NCBI RefSeq assembly: GCF_036370855.1
Contig: NW_026991408.1
Coordinates: 248,001 to 312,000, forward strand
Length of the DNA: 64,000 nt
Source of the DNA: Dromaius novaehollandiae
Taxonomy: Eukaryota > Chordata > Aves > Casuariiformes > Dromaiidae
Direction: 5' to 3'
Shown here: piece after piece, positions 8,901 to 32,612 of the stretch
Position numbering within the stretch: the stretch's first letter is position 1
How the letters are laid out: every line of letters begins with the position of its first letter
Notes under the pieces: generated by a model
Told to the model about the DNA's origin: nothing
Seen by the model: only the letters and a program-made list of their open reading frames with translations
The model's database searches: none
Program-made: the position numbers and the translations under genes

Positions 8901-11900
8901 TCTTCCAGCGCACCTCATGGTGCCGCCCCGGGCTTACGGCCGGATGGTGCAGGAGGCGGAGGCGGTGGAACGGGAAAGCAGCCTTCGCAGTTCGTTTACG
9001 TCTTTACCACGCACCTTGCTAACACGTAAGCAGTAAACCCTGTCCGTCCTCCGCTGGTAGGACTGACCTGTCACAGCTGCCCGCTGTACACTGCGCTTGA
9101 CTAGAGGAGATCTGGGCAGGCCCTGTGCCTCTTCAGTTGCACTGAGCAACTGAGGTTGCTCAGGTTGGTCCTGAAACAGGTTCAGGAGGTTTGCCGGCAG
9201 CTACTGCTGATGGATGAACTCTGTCGGAAACGCACGTTTCCTCCCAGCAGTGCCCATCACGGCTTTCTGCACGGAGCACTGCAGAATTTATCTTGTCAGC
9301 ATCTAATTAAAGGATTTGTCCGGAGCAGTGTGGACTGCTGGTCTGATTTGGAAGCACCTAGGGGGTTGGGGAGCCGTGGGGACTGCCCTGCAACAACCGG
9401 CATTCTCAGCTCCCTTCCCCTCTCCTGCCTTGCGTGGTCTCAGCCGTGGAGCCGTACGTAGACCACTTAGTTTCAGAGCCCTTTGCTGCATCACAGAGTC
9501 TGTGTGGTGGGTCCCAGAGCGTCTCGGCTACAGACAGCCTCAGGGCAGCGTGCAGCAGCAGGCGCAGAGCAGAGAGCCCAGCACAGGACGTGGGAAAAAG
9601 GAAGTTCTAAGGCAACTGATCTTCAACTGGGGAAGCTCCCCGGGGCCCGAACAGGACCGATAGGCAGTCTCTGAGGATATTCCCCTTTTCCCGCAGGACC
9701 GAAAAGCGGAGGCGGGCCTGGGGCCTGGGAGGAGGGGATGGGACACAACGCTTGTCTGTTCTTGAGCGGTCTGTGTTCTCTCCCCAGAGCCGCAGAAGCT
9801 GTCTTGCAGGGCCGAGCTGACTCCATTCTGGCCTATCATCAGCAGAACGTCCCACGGGCAAAGCTAGACCAGGTATACCAGCTGTGAACCAAATGCTGCT
9901 GTCGGCACACGCTGCTGACCGATGTCCGCTCAGCTCTGACATGGCCGTCCTCACCCTACCTCCTGGCTCGGCTGTGAAGGGAGGGCCTGTCAGAGTCCCC
10001 TTTCAGTGGTGTGAGAAGCCGCTTTTCTGCAGGACCTCTTTGGAGTGACTCCTGGCTGCTGTCAGCTATGCTAAATTTGGGATGGGGGCACTGTCTGTGG
10101 CCCTGCGAGCATGTGGGCAGAACACCCACTTGTGCATTTCCGTGGCACCCGGGACATGCAACAGGGCCTGCTTCTTCCCCACAAGGAATGAAGGCAGAAC
10201 CGCCATGTGGCATGTTTCTGGGATACAGTGGTCTCCCGCAGGGTGGAGGGAAGAACACCTGCCTAGAGGTTTTCCTGCTCACTTTGGCTTCCCCTTTCTC
10301 TGTCAGGCGCCAGCTCCTAAAGTGCTGGGGGTTGCTGAGCAGCTACCGATTAACCCGCCTGCTGCCAACACTCCGCAGTCCCAGCCGCCAGCACCGCAAG
10401 CTAGTCAGCCACAGCCGCAGCCTCCCCCGCCGCAGCCTCCGCCTGCGCCCCCGACCATCAGCCAGACAGCTTTGCCCGCGCCCAGTGCCCTGCCGCAAGA
10501 AGGGACAGGCGAGGATGTCCGGAGGGATTTGACTCCCAACTCTCTGGGGAACAGCAGCAGCAGCAGCAGCACCCAGCCTGGGAGCAACCACCCAAATGCA
10601 CCCACCGCCTCTGCCAACACCATGCAGCCCGGGCAAGTGGACTCCTCTGCCGCTTCCAGCTCCGGCCTCCTGGGGGAAGGCCCGGGCTCGGGGATGCCGG
10701 GGAACGGGCAGGCAGGCTTGGGCTCCAGGAACCCCCTGAACTCAGAAGGGCTCTCTAAGGAACAGCTGGAGCACCGGGAGCGCTCCCTGCAGACCCTGCG
10801 GGACATTGAACGTCTGCTGCTGCGCAGCGGGGAGGCCGAGCCCTTCATGAAGTCCAGCCAAAGCACAGGCGAGAGCGGACCTGCCCCTCAGCCACAGGCC
10901 GCCCCTGCACAGCCCCCCGCGCCCCCCGCCAGCATGAAGAAGTACGAAGAACCCCTGCAGTCCATGATTTCCCAGACACAGAGCCTGGGCGGCCCCAGCC
11001 TGGAACACGAAGTCCCTCATCACCCAAGTGCTGACATAGGGCAGCAGATGAACCTGATGATGCAGAGGCTGAACCAGGACAGCCTGACCCCGGAGCAGGT
11101 GGCCTGGAGGAAGCTGCAGGAGGAGTACTATGAGGAGAAGCGGCGGAAAGAGGAGCAGATCAGCATCCATGGCCGGCCCATGCAGGAGATCATGATTCCA
11201 CAGTCTATGGGAGGCATGATGATGCGTGGGCCGCCGCCGCCCTACCACAGCAAGCCCGGAGAGCAGTGGCCGCCAGGGATGGGCAGCCAGCTGCGGGGAC
11301 CCATAGATGTGCAGGACCCTATGCAGCTGAGAGGAGGGCCGCCCTTTCCCGGGCCGCGATTCCCTGGAAATCAAATGCAGAGAGTCTCTGGCTTTGGGGG
11401 GATGCAGAACGTGCCCTTGGATGCTCTCGGGCCCATGAATGCCATGCAGAGGCCGGTGAGGCCCAGCATGGGCTGGAGCGACGATATGCCTCCTATGGGA
11501 GGCCCCGGGACCTTTCCGCAGGGCACCCTGCCCTACCCGTCAGGGCAAGGTGACCCTGAAAGGTTCATGAATCCCCGTGCCAGGGAGGAGATCCTGCGGC
11601 ATCAGCTGATGGAGAAACGCCCGGTGGCGATGCAGCGGCCCATGGGGATGTCCAGCAACTCCATGAGCCAGGGTATGGAAATGGAGAGGATGATACAGGC
11701 TCACAGGCAAATGGATCCGTCCATGTTTGCCGGGCAGATAACGGGGGACAACCTGAGCAGTGCCCCGATGGGCATGGAGTTTGCGGGCACTCGGGGGATG
11801 CTGAGCCCCCCTATGAGCCAGTCGGGCCTTCGGGACATGGACGCGCCCATGGGCCCCAGCAACCTCAACATGAACATGAACGTGAACATGAACATGAACA

Positions 11901-14900
11901 TGAACCTCAACGTCCAAATGACCCCACAGCAGCAGATGATGATGTCGCAGAAGATGAGGGGCCCCGACATGATGGCGCACCAGGGCGTGAGCCCCGAGGA
12001 GCTGGCCAGGGCGAGGGCCCAGAACGGCAATGGGGGTGCAATGCTGGGCGGGCCCCAGAAAATGATGATTCCCTCCCAGTTCCCCAGCCAAGGACAGCAA
12101 GGCTTCTCAAGCGGACAAGGGCCTTACCCCAACATGCCCCAGGAGATGGGCAGCGCCTCGGACATGTTCAGCCCTGAGCAGGGTGCCATGCCCGTGGGGA
12201 GCATCAGCGGCACCACCAGGCTCAGCCACATCCCCCTGCCTCCAGCCTCCAATCCCACCCCTGCGCAAGGGGGCAACCTGGCCACCATGCACCCGGCGCC
12301 TTCCCGGGGGCTGGGCCGCCGGCCTTCTGACCTCACCATCAACATCAGCCAGATGAACTCCCCCAGCATGGGCCACCTCAAGTCCCCCACGCTCAGCCAG
12401 GTGCACTCGCCGCTGGTCACCTCCCCCTCTGCCAACCTCAAGTCCCCGCAGACGCCCTCGCAGATGGTCAGCATGCCTCCTTCAAACCAGTCTGGGCCCC
12501 TGAAGTCCCCCCAGGTGATGAGCTCCTCGCTCAACGTCCGGTCTCCCACTGGCTCACCAAGCCGCCTCAAGTCTCCTTCGATGGCCGTTCCTTCCCCTGG
12601 TTGGGTGCCGTCTCCCAAAGCCACCATGCCTAGCCCTGGAGTCAACCAGAGCAAGCAGAGCCTCAGCATGAACTCGTCTGCTTCCATGGGAGGACTGGAT
12701 CAGGGTATGCTGGTATCCTGCGTGCGAGTGTGCATGTATGCTTGTATTTGGCGTGTGTGGAGATCCAGGATCCTGGAAGAAACTCAAAGGCTCCTTAGGA
12801 TCAGCTCTGGCCACTTCTGCACCTGTGGTTTCCATCCCCTAAATCCAGTCAGCTCAGACTGGTTGCAGTCACATTGTCAGCAGCAGTCTAGTGCTTTCTG
12901 AACCTTAGGAAACACGTGCCCTGCTCTCCTTCCCCCTCTGCTTGCTTTTGGCTGCTTGCTTCAGGCAGCCCGGAGTGTTTTTGCAGCCATTGCCGACTGG
13001 CACAACTGCACGGTTTGTGTCCCGACAGTCGGCAGAGGTGACAGACACCAGCCTGGGGAGATGCCTACGTGCAGGACAGGTTGTGGACACCGTGGGAGTG
13101 ATGTGGTGTATCTGAATGTTACAGGGACTGTATTCTCAGTGGTCTGTCTGCCCGGTGGGTTCTGCCACCCTTTTTTCAGGCCCTTTTTCCCCCCACAGTG
13201 CTTCTGTCTAACCCGCGTGCTCCCGCAGGTTTGGGGAGACGCTCATACTTGTGTGTGTGCCCGTGGTTTACGTTCTCCCGCTTTTCATGAAGTAGACCTT
13301 TTTCCCAGGAGTCCAAATAGGGCTTTTCAGATAGGCGGAATAGCAAACAGAGCAGCTCCTACTTCAGTCTCAGCTGATCCCCTGTGACGCAGGTAGTGAA
13401 GGATCTGTCTGAGCTGGGAGGTCAGGAGCAGTTTGAAATGGAAGTCCGGTGCGGTTCTGGAGCAGGGTCTCTGCACGGTTCTTCCTCAGAGTCCTGAGGG
13501 CTCTGTGTTTTGCAGCCGCCTCTGATCGCTGCAGTTCTAAGGAGAGAATGCGTTTGCCGTCTGACAGGAGCAAGCTGCGGTTTGCGGGTGGTACTAAGCT
13601 GGTCTCTCTCTTGCTTACAGGTTCTCTCCCTTCTGGGCCTAGGAGCAGTTCTTCCGCACCAGCCAGTAACACCTCTAGCACCATGAATCCCAATATGCCT
13701 TTTACTTCCTCTCCAGATCCATCCCCCTCCCAGAACCCCCTCTCGCTGATGATGTCCCAGATGTCCAAGTACGCCATGCCCAGCTCCACACCGCTTTACC
13801 ACAACGCCATCAAAACCATCGCCACCTCTGATGACGAACTGCTGCCAGACAGGCCTATGCTCCCACCTGGAAGTATGTCAGGTATGTACTTCTGGAGCCG
13901 GGCTTTGGAGCGGTACGATTGCCTTGTGGCCCTCAGCAGCCCGATGGACTGTGCGGAGGAGGAGAGGGCAGCTGCAAACTTAGAGCAGGCATGAGAAACT
14001 CTGTTCTCCCATTGACTTCTTGGTCAGATAGCTTAAATTTGCCCTCGTTCTTGGTAGTCTGCTTGCCCAGACTGTCTGCCAGCTTTCGGCTTGGGTGCAC
14101 TGCTCAGAAAGATGTGACCCAGTCTGGCGTTCTGGGTGCTCTCTTTGCGTGAGCTCTGGAAGTTCCTGCAACTACCTTTATCCCGTTTGGATGTGTTGGC
14201 CCTGGATTTTCTCTGCTCTTGGAGATGTCCCAGGACTTCCAGGCAGATGTCTCTTGCTTGGAAGCCCTGTTTTCTTCTGGAGGACGTGGCCCGCTGGGAC
14301 AGGGACACTCTGAACAAGGTTTGGAAGTCTGACGGTTCTGAGTAGAGCCCAGGTGCCTGCACAGGCAGGGCTGTGTCGTAGCAGAGTGTGAATCCTCCTC
14401 AGTTCTGATTTCAGTATGCGAGAGCCAGATCTGCTTCGCTAGCTGGTGGCGCTGATGAGGACAGCTAGGCAAATGATTGTCTCTTATCGTTTGGTGACCG
14501 GCCTAAAGGGGAAGGGGAATTCCAGCAGACTGTGCCGCTTGATTTGGGGGTTTTAAGCTGTCTGATAAACACTTTTGGTGGTTTTCAGAATGAAAAATCA
14601 GCTTTTTGACTCTCTTGCTCCCAAGTACTCTGTTTGACCCAACATGCAAATACGCTTGCTCCCTCTTAAGCCGAACCTCTCTGCATAGGCTGATCACTGC
14701 TGTATTGATGAGCACTTTCCTCCCTGCCAGACGACGCCTGTGCCGGGCTGCAGACTCTCGTGTCCTACTCCTCCTTGCCACCCGAGGGCGTGTGGTCACA
14801 GGGAGCTTGCTGGATTGCTAGCCGTGCGCTCAGGCGGTGGGGAAGGGTCGCTGCTCTGTGCCTTCAGGGTGACCGAGTACCTTGCTGAGATCCTCTCGTC

Positions 14901-23591: not shown

Positions 23592-25725
23592 GTAGATCAC
23601 TTAGAAGTTTACCACGATGCCAGTACTAAGAACTACAGGAAAAGTAGATGCGTAACCCGTTCACCCGTATTTTGTGTGCAAATTTCCCTCTTACTTCACA
23701 GACACTGTAATAATTTACAATCTGACTGATCGTTTTTTCAGTACCATTTGCATGTGGACACAATTCCCGTCTGAACCGGGGGTGGTGAGCGAGGCGCTTA
23801 CAAGACATCTGCAATTGCTTCCCTGGCCAGTGCTAACGCAGAGGTGAAAAGGACTGACTTCAAAGGGCTTTTCCTCCTCTGCTGTGCACGCGTGCTTGGA
23901 CGACCACAGCCACCATCACCCGAAGGTTTCAGCATCGAAGGTGCAGCGCTGCAGGAAATGGTGGACTGTCCCTGCTTTGTGTAAGACCCTTAAATTTGGA
24001 GAGTTTTCTCCTCACATCAGAGGTTGTCAGCAGCTTGCTCGGATCCCCTCCTGAGCTGGACAGGTCAAACGCGACTCCTCACATAACAATTAGTCTCTCT
24101 AGAGGGCCCTGGGATTTGGCAAAGTGAGGCTGTAAGTGAGCATTTTGTTAGTAGGCTGAGCTACAGAAGTGATGTTTAGCACAACAGTCTTGCTGCAGCT
24201 GTAGAATTAATACTGTTCTGACTTTGCCTAAAAGGTGAGGTGACTTGCAGAGCTGCTTTTAAAGTGTGCTTGTGGTCAGGTTCACGCTAGCGTGAAGGTT
24301 TGTACCTATAGCACAGTTTGGGCCAAAGTAACGTTTAGATAAGGAGAAAACGTAAGGAAGTAGCACTGTACACGCACTGCTGTGACAACACCTGGTAGCG
24401 AGCAGCCGGCTAAGCAAGTCTGCCCGGTATGCCAGCTTGCAGTGGGAAAATTTATGATGGCGTAAAACTGCCGCTCTCATTTTGGAGCAAGCTGTTATGG
24501 AGCAGCCCTGGTCTGGGCAGTCGCAATACCCACGGTTCAGGGCAAGATCAGTGCCCAAGTTCGTTCTGTGTAAACCTGAACGCGTTATAAACTTCTAAAA
24601 GCCTTTACAGATGCAGGTAGAGCAAGAGTATCTGAAAGCACAGTGCGAAGCAAAGCAAAATGTTACATTCCCTCTCTGCCAGGAAAAACAAACAGAAATG
24701 ATGCAGATTGGCTCTTTTCCTCCTGCGGTCTGCCTTACTCGGGGGTAATGGCACTCCTCGCTCTCAGAAGCCACGCGAGTTGTCCGACCTGCTGCAAAAG
24801 AAACGTCACACCTTCAGCCTCGCAGAGGTAGGTGGTTCATCTTCTCTGCGCCCCGTCGCAAGACCGAAGCCATCTGTTCAGACAGTATTTTCTTCCTTGA
24901 AAGAAAACCTCTGCATACTCAGGCACTCGCTTCAGCAAGTCCGCTCACTGCAGCTATTAACAGCAGCAGGACAGGGAAAGCAAGCGGGACAAGGTGCGGC
25001 TGGCAGCAGGAGAAGGGTCCGCGGCAGTCGAATCCCTGCGTGGGCGGCAGGGCCTGCTGGCGTGAGCCGTGCTGGGAGAGCGGTGTGCCACAGCCGGGGG
25101 CTGTTGTGCAGCAGGGCCGGACGGGGGGACCCCCCGCAGCGGGAGGAGCAACTTTCCAGCCAGGGACTGTCCTGCACCGTCCGCCCGTATTACTGGCCTT
25201 AGCTCTACGTCCCCCTCTGCTCCTACCCGCGTCCCTCGTTCCGGCTACCTGCGGTAAGCGACCCGCACTGCTTCCTTTGTGCGCGTCTCCGAGGACCCGA
25301 GCGGGTGCAATGCTGCTGTTCTCGGTCCTCGCTGGCTGACGCACGCCCACCTTTCCCCGGCTGGTCCTTCTCGCTGCTCCCCCCGGCCCAGCCCGGCGTC
25401 CGGCTGTGCGCGCAGGGTCCCGCAGTCAGTTCTTCCAGGGAGAGGGGCCGGGTCGGGTTTAACTTGCCCGGGGTCGTCCAGCCCTGCCGGAGGGACCGCG
25501 AGACAGAGCCAGCGTTCGCCAAGAGCTGCCGGGCAGATTTCTCTGCGCGCTTGAACCCGCTGAACCAGGGAGCGTTTGGCAGAAGTTGGGCGTTAGGTGG
25601 CTGTTAAACCTCAGCTTCCTGGGGAGCAAATAAAGTGGTGGGGACGCAGGGCTGAGAGCGCAGCACGCGTGCCGTTGGGAAGGCACGACCCAGGCCGTCT
25701 CCACCCCGCGCTCAGCCCTCCGCGG
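23592..25725 (-). other. Probable CXCR5 3' UTR
   Basis: Sequence between the CXCR5 stop codon and the candidate AATAAA on the minus strand. No coding potential of a known family is seen on either strand. The assignment rests only on the position of the poly(A) signal. Confidence 0.35.
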
Positions 25726-28700
25726 TCAGAAAGTGGAGATGGAGGTGGTGTTGTCGGATTCGATGCCGCTGCCCTTCCTCGCCACCTCCAGAATCTCCTG
25801 CAGGGTCTCCTGGCTTATGCAGCTGAGCTCCTGCAGGATGCGGAAGAAGTCGTTCCGGAACTTGACGCCGATGAAGGCGTAGAGCAGGGGGTTGAGGCAG
25901 CAGTGCGTGAAGCCGACGGCCTCCGTCACCATGATGGCCGTGTCCAGCCGGTCTTCCAGGAGGCAGTTCTTGCTGAAGGCTTCCAGCTTGGCGAGCGTGT
26001 TCAGGAAGATGACGATGTGGTAGGGGCTCCAGCAGAGCAGGAACACGCCGGTCACCAGAATGGCTACTCTGACGGCTTTCTGCCTCTGCAGGCGCTGGGA
26101 CTGGCACAGGGTCCTCACGATGGCCATGTAGCAGTAACCCATGACCAGCAGGGGCGCGAAGAAGCCCACGGTGTGGTACAGGAAGCGGGTCGCCAGCCAC
26201 GCGTTGTTGCCGTGGATGCCAACCTCTGGGAAATAGCAAATGCTGCGATTGCTCTCGTCTGTCCAGACTTCCATGAAGATGAGATCGGGTAAGGTCAGGA
26301 GCACAGAGCAGAGCCAGACGCCCGCGCAGGTGAGGTGAATGGAGCGAGCTCTGCGCTTCCGGTAGGTGTGGATGGCGTAGACGATGGCCAGGTAGCGGTC
26401 CACCCCGATGCACCCCAGCAGCATGCTGCTGCAGTAGAAGTTGATCTTGTGGACGGCGCTGAGGATCTTGCAGAGGAAAGTCCCAAACACCCACCCGGCC
26501 AGGCTCTCCACCACGCTGAAGGGGAAGGTAAGCAGCAGTACCAGGTTGGCCAGGGTCAGGTGGAAGAGGAAGTTTTCGGTGGTAGTGCGAGAGCGCTTGA
26601 ACCTCTCCAGGATGACTAGGACCAGGGCGTTGCCCGCAGTCCCCAACACAAACATCAGCAGATAGATGAGGGGCATGAAGATCTTTCTGAAAGGGTCTCT
26701 CTGGTTGCCGACGACAGAGGAGGCTGGGTTGAAGCAGAAGTAGCCGTCCAAAGAAGGGGTGGTGTTGTCAGCTTCGTAGTAACCGCTCAGCTCCACCTGG
26801 CTCTGGGGGGGCAGAGAGAGAGAGAGAGTCTGGTTACAGCAGGGGAGTTTCTGCGCAGAAAAGGTCCGGTCCGTCGACTGCGCCTGGCGGGACGGGCGGC
26901 CTGTCCTGGAGCAGAGCATCCCCTGCTCCCGCGGCCCGGCTCTGGCGACAGGCAGCACTCGCCCGTCACGGGAGGAGGTGGTGCCCGCCCTCTCCGCGGG
27001 GACCTGGGAGGCCCCTCCGGGCCCAGCCCCGCGCAGAGCACTGGTGTGCGGGCAGGGCGGTCTGGTTCCTAGAAGCGGGGCTGCTCCTATCCCCTGCTGC
27101 TCGGTTTCTAGTTCCTAGCTAACACCTTTTGGGAGGTTCTGGCAGCCGGGTAGACGAGCGGTTCGTCTTTGGCTTCTGCTGAGCTGGCAGGTGCCTTGCT
27201 GCACGGTGCGGACCCCTCCCTTTATCCCTGCCCTGCTGCTTCCGCCTGTTTGCGGCGCAGACGGTGCGTGCCTGGCGCGGGCACCCGGAGCCTCGCCGTC
27301 CCTGCCCGCCGTTCCCTCTTCCTGCCCGTCTCTGGCCCCGGTAGCTGCTCTCCGAGGCAGCCTGGCCGCAGCCTCTCCGAGCGGAGCTGGGGACTCGGCG
27401 TCGCGGCCCCCGGGGAGCCGCGGGGGACAGCGGCGGTGCCGGCGCCCCGGGATCGCTCTCCGCACGCTCGGAGACCTTCTGGGGCAGGTGTGGGAGCGCG
27501 GCTTGGGCCGCGCGTCCGGGGCGCCTCGCGGGCCGCGGAGGTGGCGGACGGAGGCCGGGGAGAGAAACCTGTGCTGCTGGTGAACGCCGCGGTCACCAAC
27601 AGCGCAGGGAGGGATCTGGTCGATCCCCAGCGAGGAAAGAGCGACGCAGCTGCTGCAGGCGCGATTCGCGCCGGGCGCGGGGTGACTGCCGGCCGGGCGA
27701 GCGGCCCGTGCCCAGAGCTGAGCCGGGACGCGCGGGTCGGGAAGCTGGCAGCCCCGCGAGGGGGGACACCCCAACGGCGGGCGGGCCCCGGCTGCCCTCA
27801 GGCGCTGCGCGGAAGCCGAGCGCCAGCACAGGGCTCCGACAGCCCAGCAGCGAAGAAAGCAGCACGGGGGGCTCGTGGCAAGCGCGGAGATTACTGACAA
27901 AATGGGAAGGGCTCCTCGGCAGTTACCGTGAGCTCCCCGCCCACAGCCTCGCCGGAGACCGGCGCTGAGGCTGCAGCCTCGACCACAGCGGAAGTCCCTG
28001 CTCGCTGCTTTCATGCCTTTCACTGCCAGCTGTAGCCGCTTGCACCTGCTGCTCCTTCCCCCAGCAGCCAAAGTTCCCATCTAAAAATATTAGCCCCGCT
28101 TTAAGCAGTTTTAGAGCTAATTTTATTTATTTACGATCACTTTTCCCCCCCCACCGCCATGTGCTGGCAAGCCAGGGGAGTGACTAGCCTCGAGTGCTGC
28201 GCTGCCCCAGCAAGAAGAGGAGGCGGCGGTCCCCGCCCCCCGTCAGAGGCCTCCGCAGGCGCTTGGCTGGGCTGGAGGGAGGGATGGTCTCGCAGTGTGG
28301 CAGCGCCCGTCTCTAGCTGCTGCTCTGCCAAGGCCGCTGACGTGCCTCGGGGGTGCCTGGGCGCGTTCAGGGGAGCGGCGGCCGCCGAGCGTTCCCGAGC
28401 GCGCAGCAGATGCGGCTGGCTCCGGCAGCCCCTGGCGCTGGGTGGTGGGAGGCAGGCAAGCCCAAGCCCCTGGGGAAAGCACAAGATAGGCTTCCCCAGT
28501 TCTTACTCTCTGCCTTCACCAGAGACAGCGCGCTGAGCCAGGTGCAGCCGGCTGCCGAGACACCCGTGGACTTGCCGGGGTCCCTTCTGCTGCTGGCTTT
28601 GCGCCTCTCGGCGCGCTCGCTGCGCTGCGGTACCGCGGCCCTTCCTCCTGAAAGGTGAGAGTCGATTCTCTCGGGGGCCAGGAAACCTCCCCCTGCCCTC

Positions 28701-31700: not shown

Positions 31701-32612
31701 GTAGGGGAGAGAACTACGGGGCAGATGATATGGTGTCATCAGTCCCGATTAGAAGAAACGTTTTCAGTTTATCTTCCCCTCTTTAAAGTTCCTCTCTCAT
31801 ACATGTACTGTGTATTCCTCCTCCAGCAGGGTCTAAGGCAGCCGGCTCATGGAGAAAGGAAGCAGGGGCAGGAGCGTGTACCATCGCACAGAGGCTTTTC
31901 ACACGCACAGAGATATCACTGTGGCTTGCCTTGTTATTCCTGTTATTTAAAGATACTACATGAGATTTCCAGGGCTCTGCACTCTGCACAGTCATTTATG
32001 CCACTGAAAGTTGGTACAAAGCGCTCCCGACTCAGAATTCGAGTGTTCTACGCCCACACCGTGCCGATGTGCATGACTGCGCAAAGAGCGAGGTGGCAGA
32101 GGGTGAAGACCGCTTTCTCCCTGGGATCCCGAGGAAGCGCGCTCGGGCAGGCTGGCAGCGCAGGGCCCAGCCCCGCTCCCCGCGCGAGCCCCGTGGCCCT
32201 TCCCACGGGGGCTGCGGTCTTGGCCCCCGTGTGAGGACGGGCTCGGGCTCAGCACTCGCGAAAGCACGTTAAACGCGTGGTCCCAGCAGCCATGCAGCTT
32301 CCCACGGGGCAGTATCGTAGGGCCACACTAGCTATAACGACATTACACCAGTTCGCCACAAACACAGCGTTGCTGCTTGCAGTCCCCTCATCGGTCAGGT
32401 GCAGGATTAGGGGACGTGCGGTCCAGCCGCGTTGGCGTGATTGCTCCAGCTCCGTCTCTTCTCAGAGGACGGGGCAGAGGATGGACACACAGAAAGTCGG
32501 GTCTCCCAGCCCACCCAGCGCTGCCTGCTCCCCCCGCTATCCGCTCGCATGAGCAAAACCAGGTCCAACTCACCAAGTCGTAGGTCTCTGAGGAGTAGCT
32601 GACAGGCCCCAT
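25726..32612 (-). CDS. CXCR5: C-X-C chemokine receptor type 5 (two coding exons)
   Basis: Seven-transmembrane receptor for CXCL13 that guides B cells and follicular helper T cells into lymphoid follicles. Exon 1 is 32612-32574 (13 codons, MGPVSYSSETYDL, donor gtgagt) and exon 2 is 26802-25726; the join is phase 0 and gives 371 aa (human 372). Family marks: N-terminal acidic/Tyr segment (sulfation candidates Y21, Y22, Y34); N-terminal Cys36 and Cys293 in extracellular loop 3; Cys124 and Cys202 for the usual disulfide; DRYLAIV at 148-154; CWSPYH at 270-275; NPLLY at 317-321; and a Ser/Thr-rich tail ending TTSISTF, like the human tail. The segments FYCSSMLL and QRQKAVRVAILVT identify CXCR5 rather than CXCR3 or CXCR4. 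Oddity: the Asp normally at position 2.50 is Asn99 (codon 26547-26545). The start has a strong Kozak context (A at -3, G at +4). The open frame above 26802 is intron and polypyrimidine tract, not protein. Confidence 0.95.
26803..32573 (-). other. CXCR5 intron 1 (5.8 kb)
   Basis: Donor gtgagt at 32573; acceptor CAG at 26803-26805, preceded by a run of C and by a (CT)n tract that reads as (GA)n on the plus strand at about 26812-26829. No nested gene is recognised. A CpG-rich patch lies at about 27,220-27,900, and other open frames in it look like GC artefacts. The part 30,100-32,000 is less GC-rich and featureless to my eye. Confidence 0.85.
27220..27900. promoter_or_regulatory. CpG-rich patch inside CXCR5 intron 1
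   Basis: Dense CpG and very high G+C, with open frames in several frames and both directions and no family match. It could be an internal promoter or enhancer, or simply GC-rich isochore sequence. The boundaries are by eye. Confidence 0.35.

Follow-up and report, generated by a model that had tools for sequence, protein, structure and literature searches.

The CXCR5 gene of this bird assembly encodes asparagine (Asn99) at position 2.50, a column occupied by aspartate in nearly all other receptors of the same genome that were aligned with it. On balance, our analysis favors a real and uncompensated D2.50N replacement in an otherwise functional bird CXCR5, in which the sodium site would be weakened and the response reduced or leaning towards arrestin.

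Identity of the gene

The minus strand of the window (the whole stretch of DNA that was analysed, 64,000 nucleotides long) contains a two-exon gene with a GT-AG intron and an open reading frame of 371 residues (Table 1). The whole protein matched the Pfam family 7tm_1 over residues 70-321 with a score of 204.6 bits (cut-off 30.5; E 2.5e-60). Its closest relatives of solved structure, among the best 60 of 770 matched sequences, were chemokine receptors, CXCR3 being the first and CCR7, CXCR2 and CXCR4 also appearing. No CXCR5 was present among these best 60 of 770, and the name CXCR5 is based on synteny and on the residues that the protein shares with the CXCR5 entry in Table 3 of PMC6037435.

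On one flank of the gene lies an open reading frame with a BCL9 domain, and on the other lie helicase motifs of the DDX6 type, giving the order BCL9L - CXCR5 - DDX6. The agreement of these flanks with the neighbours of human CXCR5, which we take to be BCL9L and DDX6, lends support to a putative orthology. In two collections that are not meant for vertebrates, a pattern scan for orthologues matched 35 stretches of the GTDB genome contigs and 24 of the IMG/VR viral contigs, and 0/35 and 0/24 of them, respectively, encoded a relative. The name proposed in the sequence-only reading is supported by the 7tm_1 match, the chemokine-receptor relatives, the synteny and the residue set of Table 3. The gene was also considered as a pseudogene, which is not supported as its open reading frame is intact. 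Cells expressing the chicken CXCR5 bind variants of CXCL13, according to the available part of PMC5736565.

Table 1. Features of the CXCR5 locus, in coordinates of the window
Feature	Position	Strand	Basis
CXCR5 exon 1, coding part MGPVSYSSETYDL, 13 codons, then GT donor	32574..32612	-	sequence alone; joined in frame to exon 2
CXCR5 exon 2, remaining coding sequence and stop codon; AG acceptor just upstream	25726..26802	-	sequence; Pfam on whole protein
Open reading frame with BCL9 domain, one flank of CXCR5	10082-12901		Pfam domain
DDX6-type helicase motifs, other flank of CXCR5	43658, 44962, 48867	+	3 of 6 patterns found
AAC codon, Asn99, position 2.50	26545..26547	-	spliced open reading frame and panel alignment
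Asn134 (3.35), sodium-site residue, kept	26440..26442	-	alignment; role from available part of PMC6037435
Ser138 (3.39), sodium-site residue, kept	26428..26430	-	alignment; role from available part of PMC6037435
DRY motif, residues 148-150, kept	26392..26400	-	open reading frame and alignment
Trp271 (6.48) in the CWSP motif, retained; its CXCR4 counterpart packs against His7.45	26029..26031	-	alignment; available part of PMC6037435
His313 (7.45), retained; binds sodium in chemokine receptors	25903..25905	-	alignment; available part of PMC6037435
Asn317 (7.49) in the NPLLY motif, retained; compensating Asp absent	25891..25893	-	alignment

Position 2.50 and the sodium site

The claim that residue 99 is an Asn at position 2.50 held, since the codon read from 26547 to 26545 is AAC and the alignment with 66 receptor open reading frames of the same genome placed it in the Asp column. 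This column contained Asp in 65 receptors, Glu in one and Asn in none, and it was Asp in all 18 members of the chemokine-receptor-like subset, which we sorted ourselves. The panel comprised 66 of the 112 matches in the genome other than CXCR5, with six apparent assembly copies and 40 others left out. The same column was Asp in 5/5 printed alignments to solved receptors (four CXCR3 constructs and one CCR7 construct). The TM2 motif of human CXCR5 is LAVADL according to the sequence-only reading. In the available parts of two papers, Asp2.50 is conserved in 94% of class A receptors (PMC12462484) and is described as fully conserved in this class (PMC6037435). The bird CXCR5, with Asn99, departs from this hallmark of class A, which is not strictly defining.

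The deviation of CXCR5 from the other receptors was not limited to this residue. Where at least 90% of them share a residue, it differed at 3/17 columns, and among the other 66 panel receptors only L059 did so more often (4/16), while L072 did so as often (3/16). Two of the 17 columns that are invariant in the 18 chemokine-like receptors were changed in CXCR5, namely those of Asn99 and Phe106; the latter is position 2.57, also in TM2, and is Leu in 18/18 of these receptors. As CXCR5 departs at several otherwise conserved columns, a general loosening of constraint is possible. Judging from the alignment, Asn99 does not appear to be noise in a free column, though CXCR5 seems a little less conserved than the majority of the panel receptors. 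Among the titles listed for the avian CXCR5 literature none treats residue 2.50 in a bird, and no paper with the TM2 strings of this receptor was found in the literature text.

Within the panel, the sole receptor with Glu2.50 was L084 (G000:C5:10306584-10307744), which we take to resemble GPR132. Two chemokine-receptor-like genes, L030 and L031 (G000:C2, about 51.01 and 51.00 Mb), had equal scores and are encoded on different strands at a distance of about 10 kb; they are perhaps a pair originated by recent duplication or conversion. Another chemokine-receptor-like gene, L035 (G000:C2:3849182-3850336), encodes Met at the 3.50 column, which breaks its DRY motif; it might perhaps be an atypical, non-signalling receptor.

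In CXCR5, by contrast with position 2.50, the surroundings of the sodium site are conserved. The earlier statement that Asn134, Ser138, DRY148-150, Trp271 and Asn317 are retained was confirmed at each position, and the protein contains the DRY, CWxP (CWSP) and NPxxY (NPLLY) motifs. As a list of sodium partners, however, it omitted His7.45 (His313) and included Asn7.49, for which the available part of PMC6037435 reports no sodium contact in simulations of CXCR4: sodium touches D2.50, N3.35, S3.39 and H7.45 in 98-99% of the frames (99% for Asp2.50, where the bird CXCR5 has Asn), and N7.49 in none. The same source names CXCR5 among three receptors capable of offering four ligands to sodium, and the N3.35, S3.39, H7.45 and W6.48 of the other two, CXCR4 and ACKR3, are also found in the bird CXCR5. 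Furthermore, A2.49, N3.35, S3.39, W6.48 and H7.45 of the bird protein are the residues tabulated there for CXCR5 (Table 3), the bird receptor differing in having Asn and not Asp2.50. The match of these five residues indicates that the pocket is otherwise maintained.

The bird CXCR5 therefore keeps three of the four sodium ligands and has lost the charged one, and none of the other sodium-site positions checked is acidic. GnRH1R also has a natural Asn2.50, but there it is paired with Asp7.49 (PMC7576152, available part); as position 7.49 of the bird CXCR5 is Asn, a compensation of this type is absent.

Expected effect on signalling

According to the mechanism that we propose, the Asp2.50 of CXCR5, the B-cell homing receptor for CXCL13, would have been swapped for Asn by one G-to-A transition, for which a CpG is a plausible site, and Asn2.50 would lack the carboxylate that receptors of the CXCR4 type use to hold sodium. 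With no carboxylate at 2.50 and no acidic residue at the other sodium positions checked, the site would be weakened or lost. The receptor would still be expected to fold and to bind CXCL13, its sensitivity to sodium would be small, and its signalling would be damped or arrestin-leaning, and not highly active at baseline.

The available parts of several reports bear on this prediction. The human GPR17 D105N is the same Asp-to-Asn change at 2.50, also caused by G-to-A; in contrast to Asn99, which belongs to a chemokine receptor and is the allele present in the assembly, it is a rare human variant of a receptor with Asp7.49 (PMC8267566). This natural variant is impaired in cAMP and calcium signalling and keeps agonist-driven arrestin recruitment, its basal cAMP being unchanged and its basal arrestin signal lower (PMC8267566). 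Mutation of D2.50 abolished the signalling of the A2A receptor and switched the delta-opioid receptor to arrestin bias (PMC12462484), and in its accessible text a survey of D2x50 lists only loss-of-function disease or inactivating mutations (PMC6954041). Most D2.50N mutants show a lower agonist affinity and a weaker response (PMC4286134), and such a lower affinity would count against a normal binding of CXCL13.

The KSHV ORF74, a chemokine-receptor homologue that like the bird CXCR5 lacks Asp2.50, is highly active without ligand (PMC12462484, available part). This strong activity with Ser2.50 counts against a damped signalling, although ORF74 is also altered at 3.39, 3.49, 6.48, 7.45 and 7.49, where the bird CXCR5 keeps the usual residues. 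The part of the literature that we covered contained no experimental data on D2.50N in any chemokine receptor. Taken as a whole, these precedents would make a reduced or biased G-protein signalling better supported than a high basal activity. The sequence-only reading had anticipated that the change often lowers sodium sensitivity or alters coupling, which agrees with the reported mutants; the unusual basal activity that it also considered is weakened by the behavior of GPR17 D105N.

It is rather doubtful, if conceivable, that Asn2.50 is fixed in the CXCR5 of a bird lineage, perhaps a palaeognath one, which would provide it with a sodium-insensitive CXCL13 receptor that is attenuated in G-protein signalling or leans towards arrestin. 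If this were true, the anchor of the sodium ion would have been lost naturally in a receptor that is among the three chemokine receptors with the tightest predicted sodium binding, in a family whose evolution has been argued, in the available part of PMC6037435, to be driven by mutations elsewhere in the sodium site. As the partners for tight binding are kept and the anchor is dropped, it would also be a natural test of the need for sodium in CXCR5 signalling and in the positioning of bird B cells.

Origin of the Asn codon and alternative explanations

The codons for 2.49 and 2.50 in the bird CXCR5 are GCC-AAC, one G-to-A step away from GCC-GAC, which is the commonest pair at these positions in the panel (10/66); a CpG at the junction of the two codons was present in 12/66 panel genes, 10 of which have GCC-GAC. 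Transitions occur frequently at CpG sites. Given a presumed ancestral Asp codon, the change to Asn by G-to-A would plausibly have taken this simple route.

The short distance from the commonest codon pair and the frequency of CpG transitions are also what would be expected if the sequenced bird carried Asn as a rare or recent allele, which may be segregating or heterozygous and perhaps slightly harmful, and the species as a whole were not characterised by it. We regard this as possible but rather unlikely. In its favor, the same change in the human CXCR4 (D84N, rs368016542) is called damaging by predictors, according to the available part of PMC11665994, and the second copy of the region in the assembly lacks the appearance of a separate haplotype; against it, the remainder of the CXCR5 reading frame is intact. 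An allele of a single bird would be of little importance.

The second copy is contig C168 (430,225 bases), which matches in inverse orientation a part of C21, the contig containing the window, and is identical to it wherever compared. With respect to the window, 63,833/63,833 comparable bases were identical and the other 167 read N; at the first end of C168, 9,000/9,000 bases were identical to C21, and a run of 200 N in C21 starts at the next base. This identity looks like one contig placed twice, and on these grounds C168 was rejected as a second haplotype. Being likely the same contig, the copy neither confirms nor refutes the AAC base.

It is quite unlikely that Asn2.50 is functionally near-neutral, with the polar network formed with N3.35, S3.39 and H7.45 working without sodium. 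These three residues are kept, Asn has almost the same shape as Asp, and the efficacy of GPR17 D105N for cAMP inhibition was preserved with a sixfold lower potency (PMC8267566, available part). However, the inactivating or loss-of-function outcomes that make up the D2x50 survey (PMC6954041, accessible text) argue in the opposite direction, and so does GnRH1R, in which changing N2.50, its partner Asp7.49 or both nearly abolishes signalling (PMC7576152, available part). A genuine D2.50N with consequences for the response continues to be the reading that we favor.

An error of sequencing or assembly, GAC being the true codon, appears very improbable: the presence of the region twice, as identical contigs, is an assembly blemish that would speak for it, but C21, a contig of 13.1 Mb, begins in telomere repeats, as would be expected of a good assembly, and the CXCR5 frame has no frameshift. 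Extremely improbable, and not supported by our analysis, is the restoration of Asp in the mRNA by A-to-I editing, which would turn AAC into IAC, read as GAC. In its favor, AAC to GAC is what such editing would produce, and the A of the codon was paired in 3/3 local folds (P 0.72 to 0.88). Against it, shuffled versions of the 601-base region fold just as well as the region itself (z +1.52; 19/20 shuffles at least as well), and the codon is covered by no inverted repeat among the 13 of at least 14 bases found in 24500-28600.

Two of six globin exons of the genome were compared with PDB chains for a lead on the lineage. For the alpha globin the best chain with a single globin was 3wtg_A (144.3 bits), and the six fused double-alpha constructs that ranked higher did so only through the summing of two stretches; for the beta globin 2zfb_B (157.3 bits) came before 3wtg_B (153.7 bits). 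As 3wtg is from the emu and 2zfb from a parakeet, these matches may hint at a palaeognath. Elsewhere in the assembly, contigs C33 and C35 both carry the same four receptor genes, with equal scores and a near-constant offset of 13.70 Mb; they are possibly little-differentiated Z and W chromosomes, such as a palaeognath would have, or two haplotypes.
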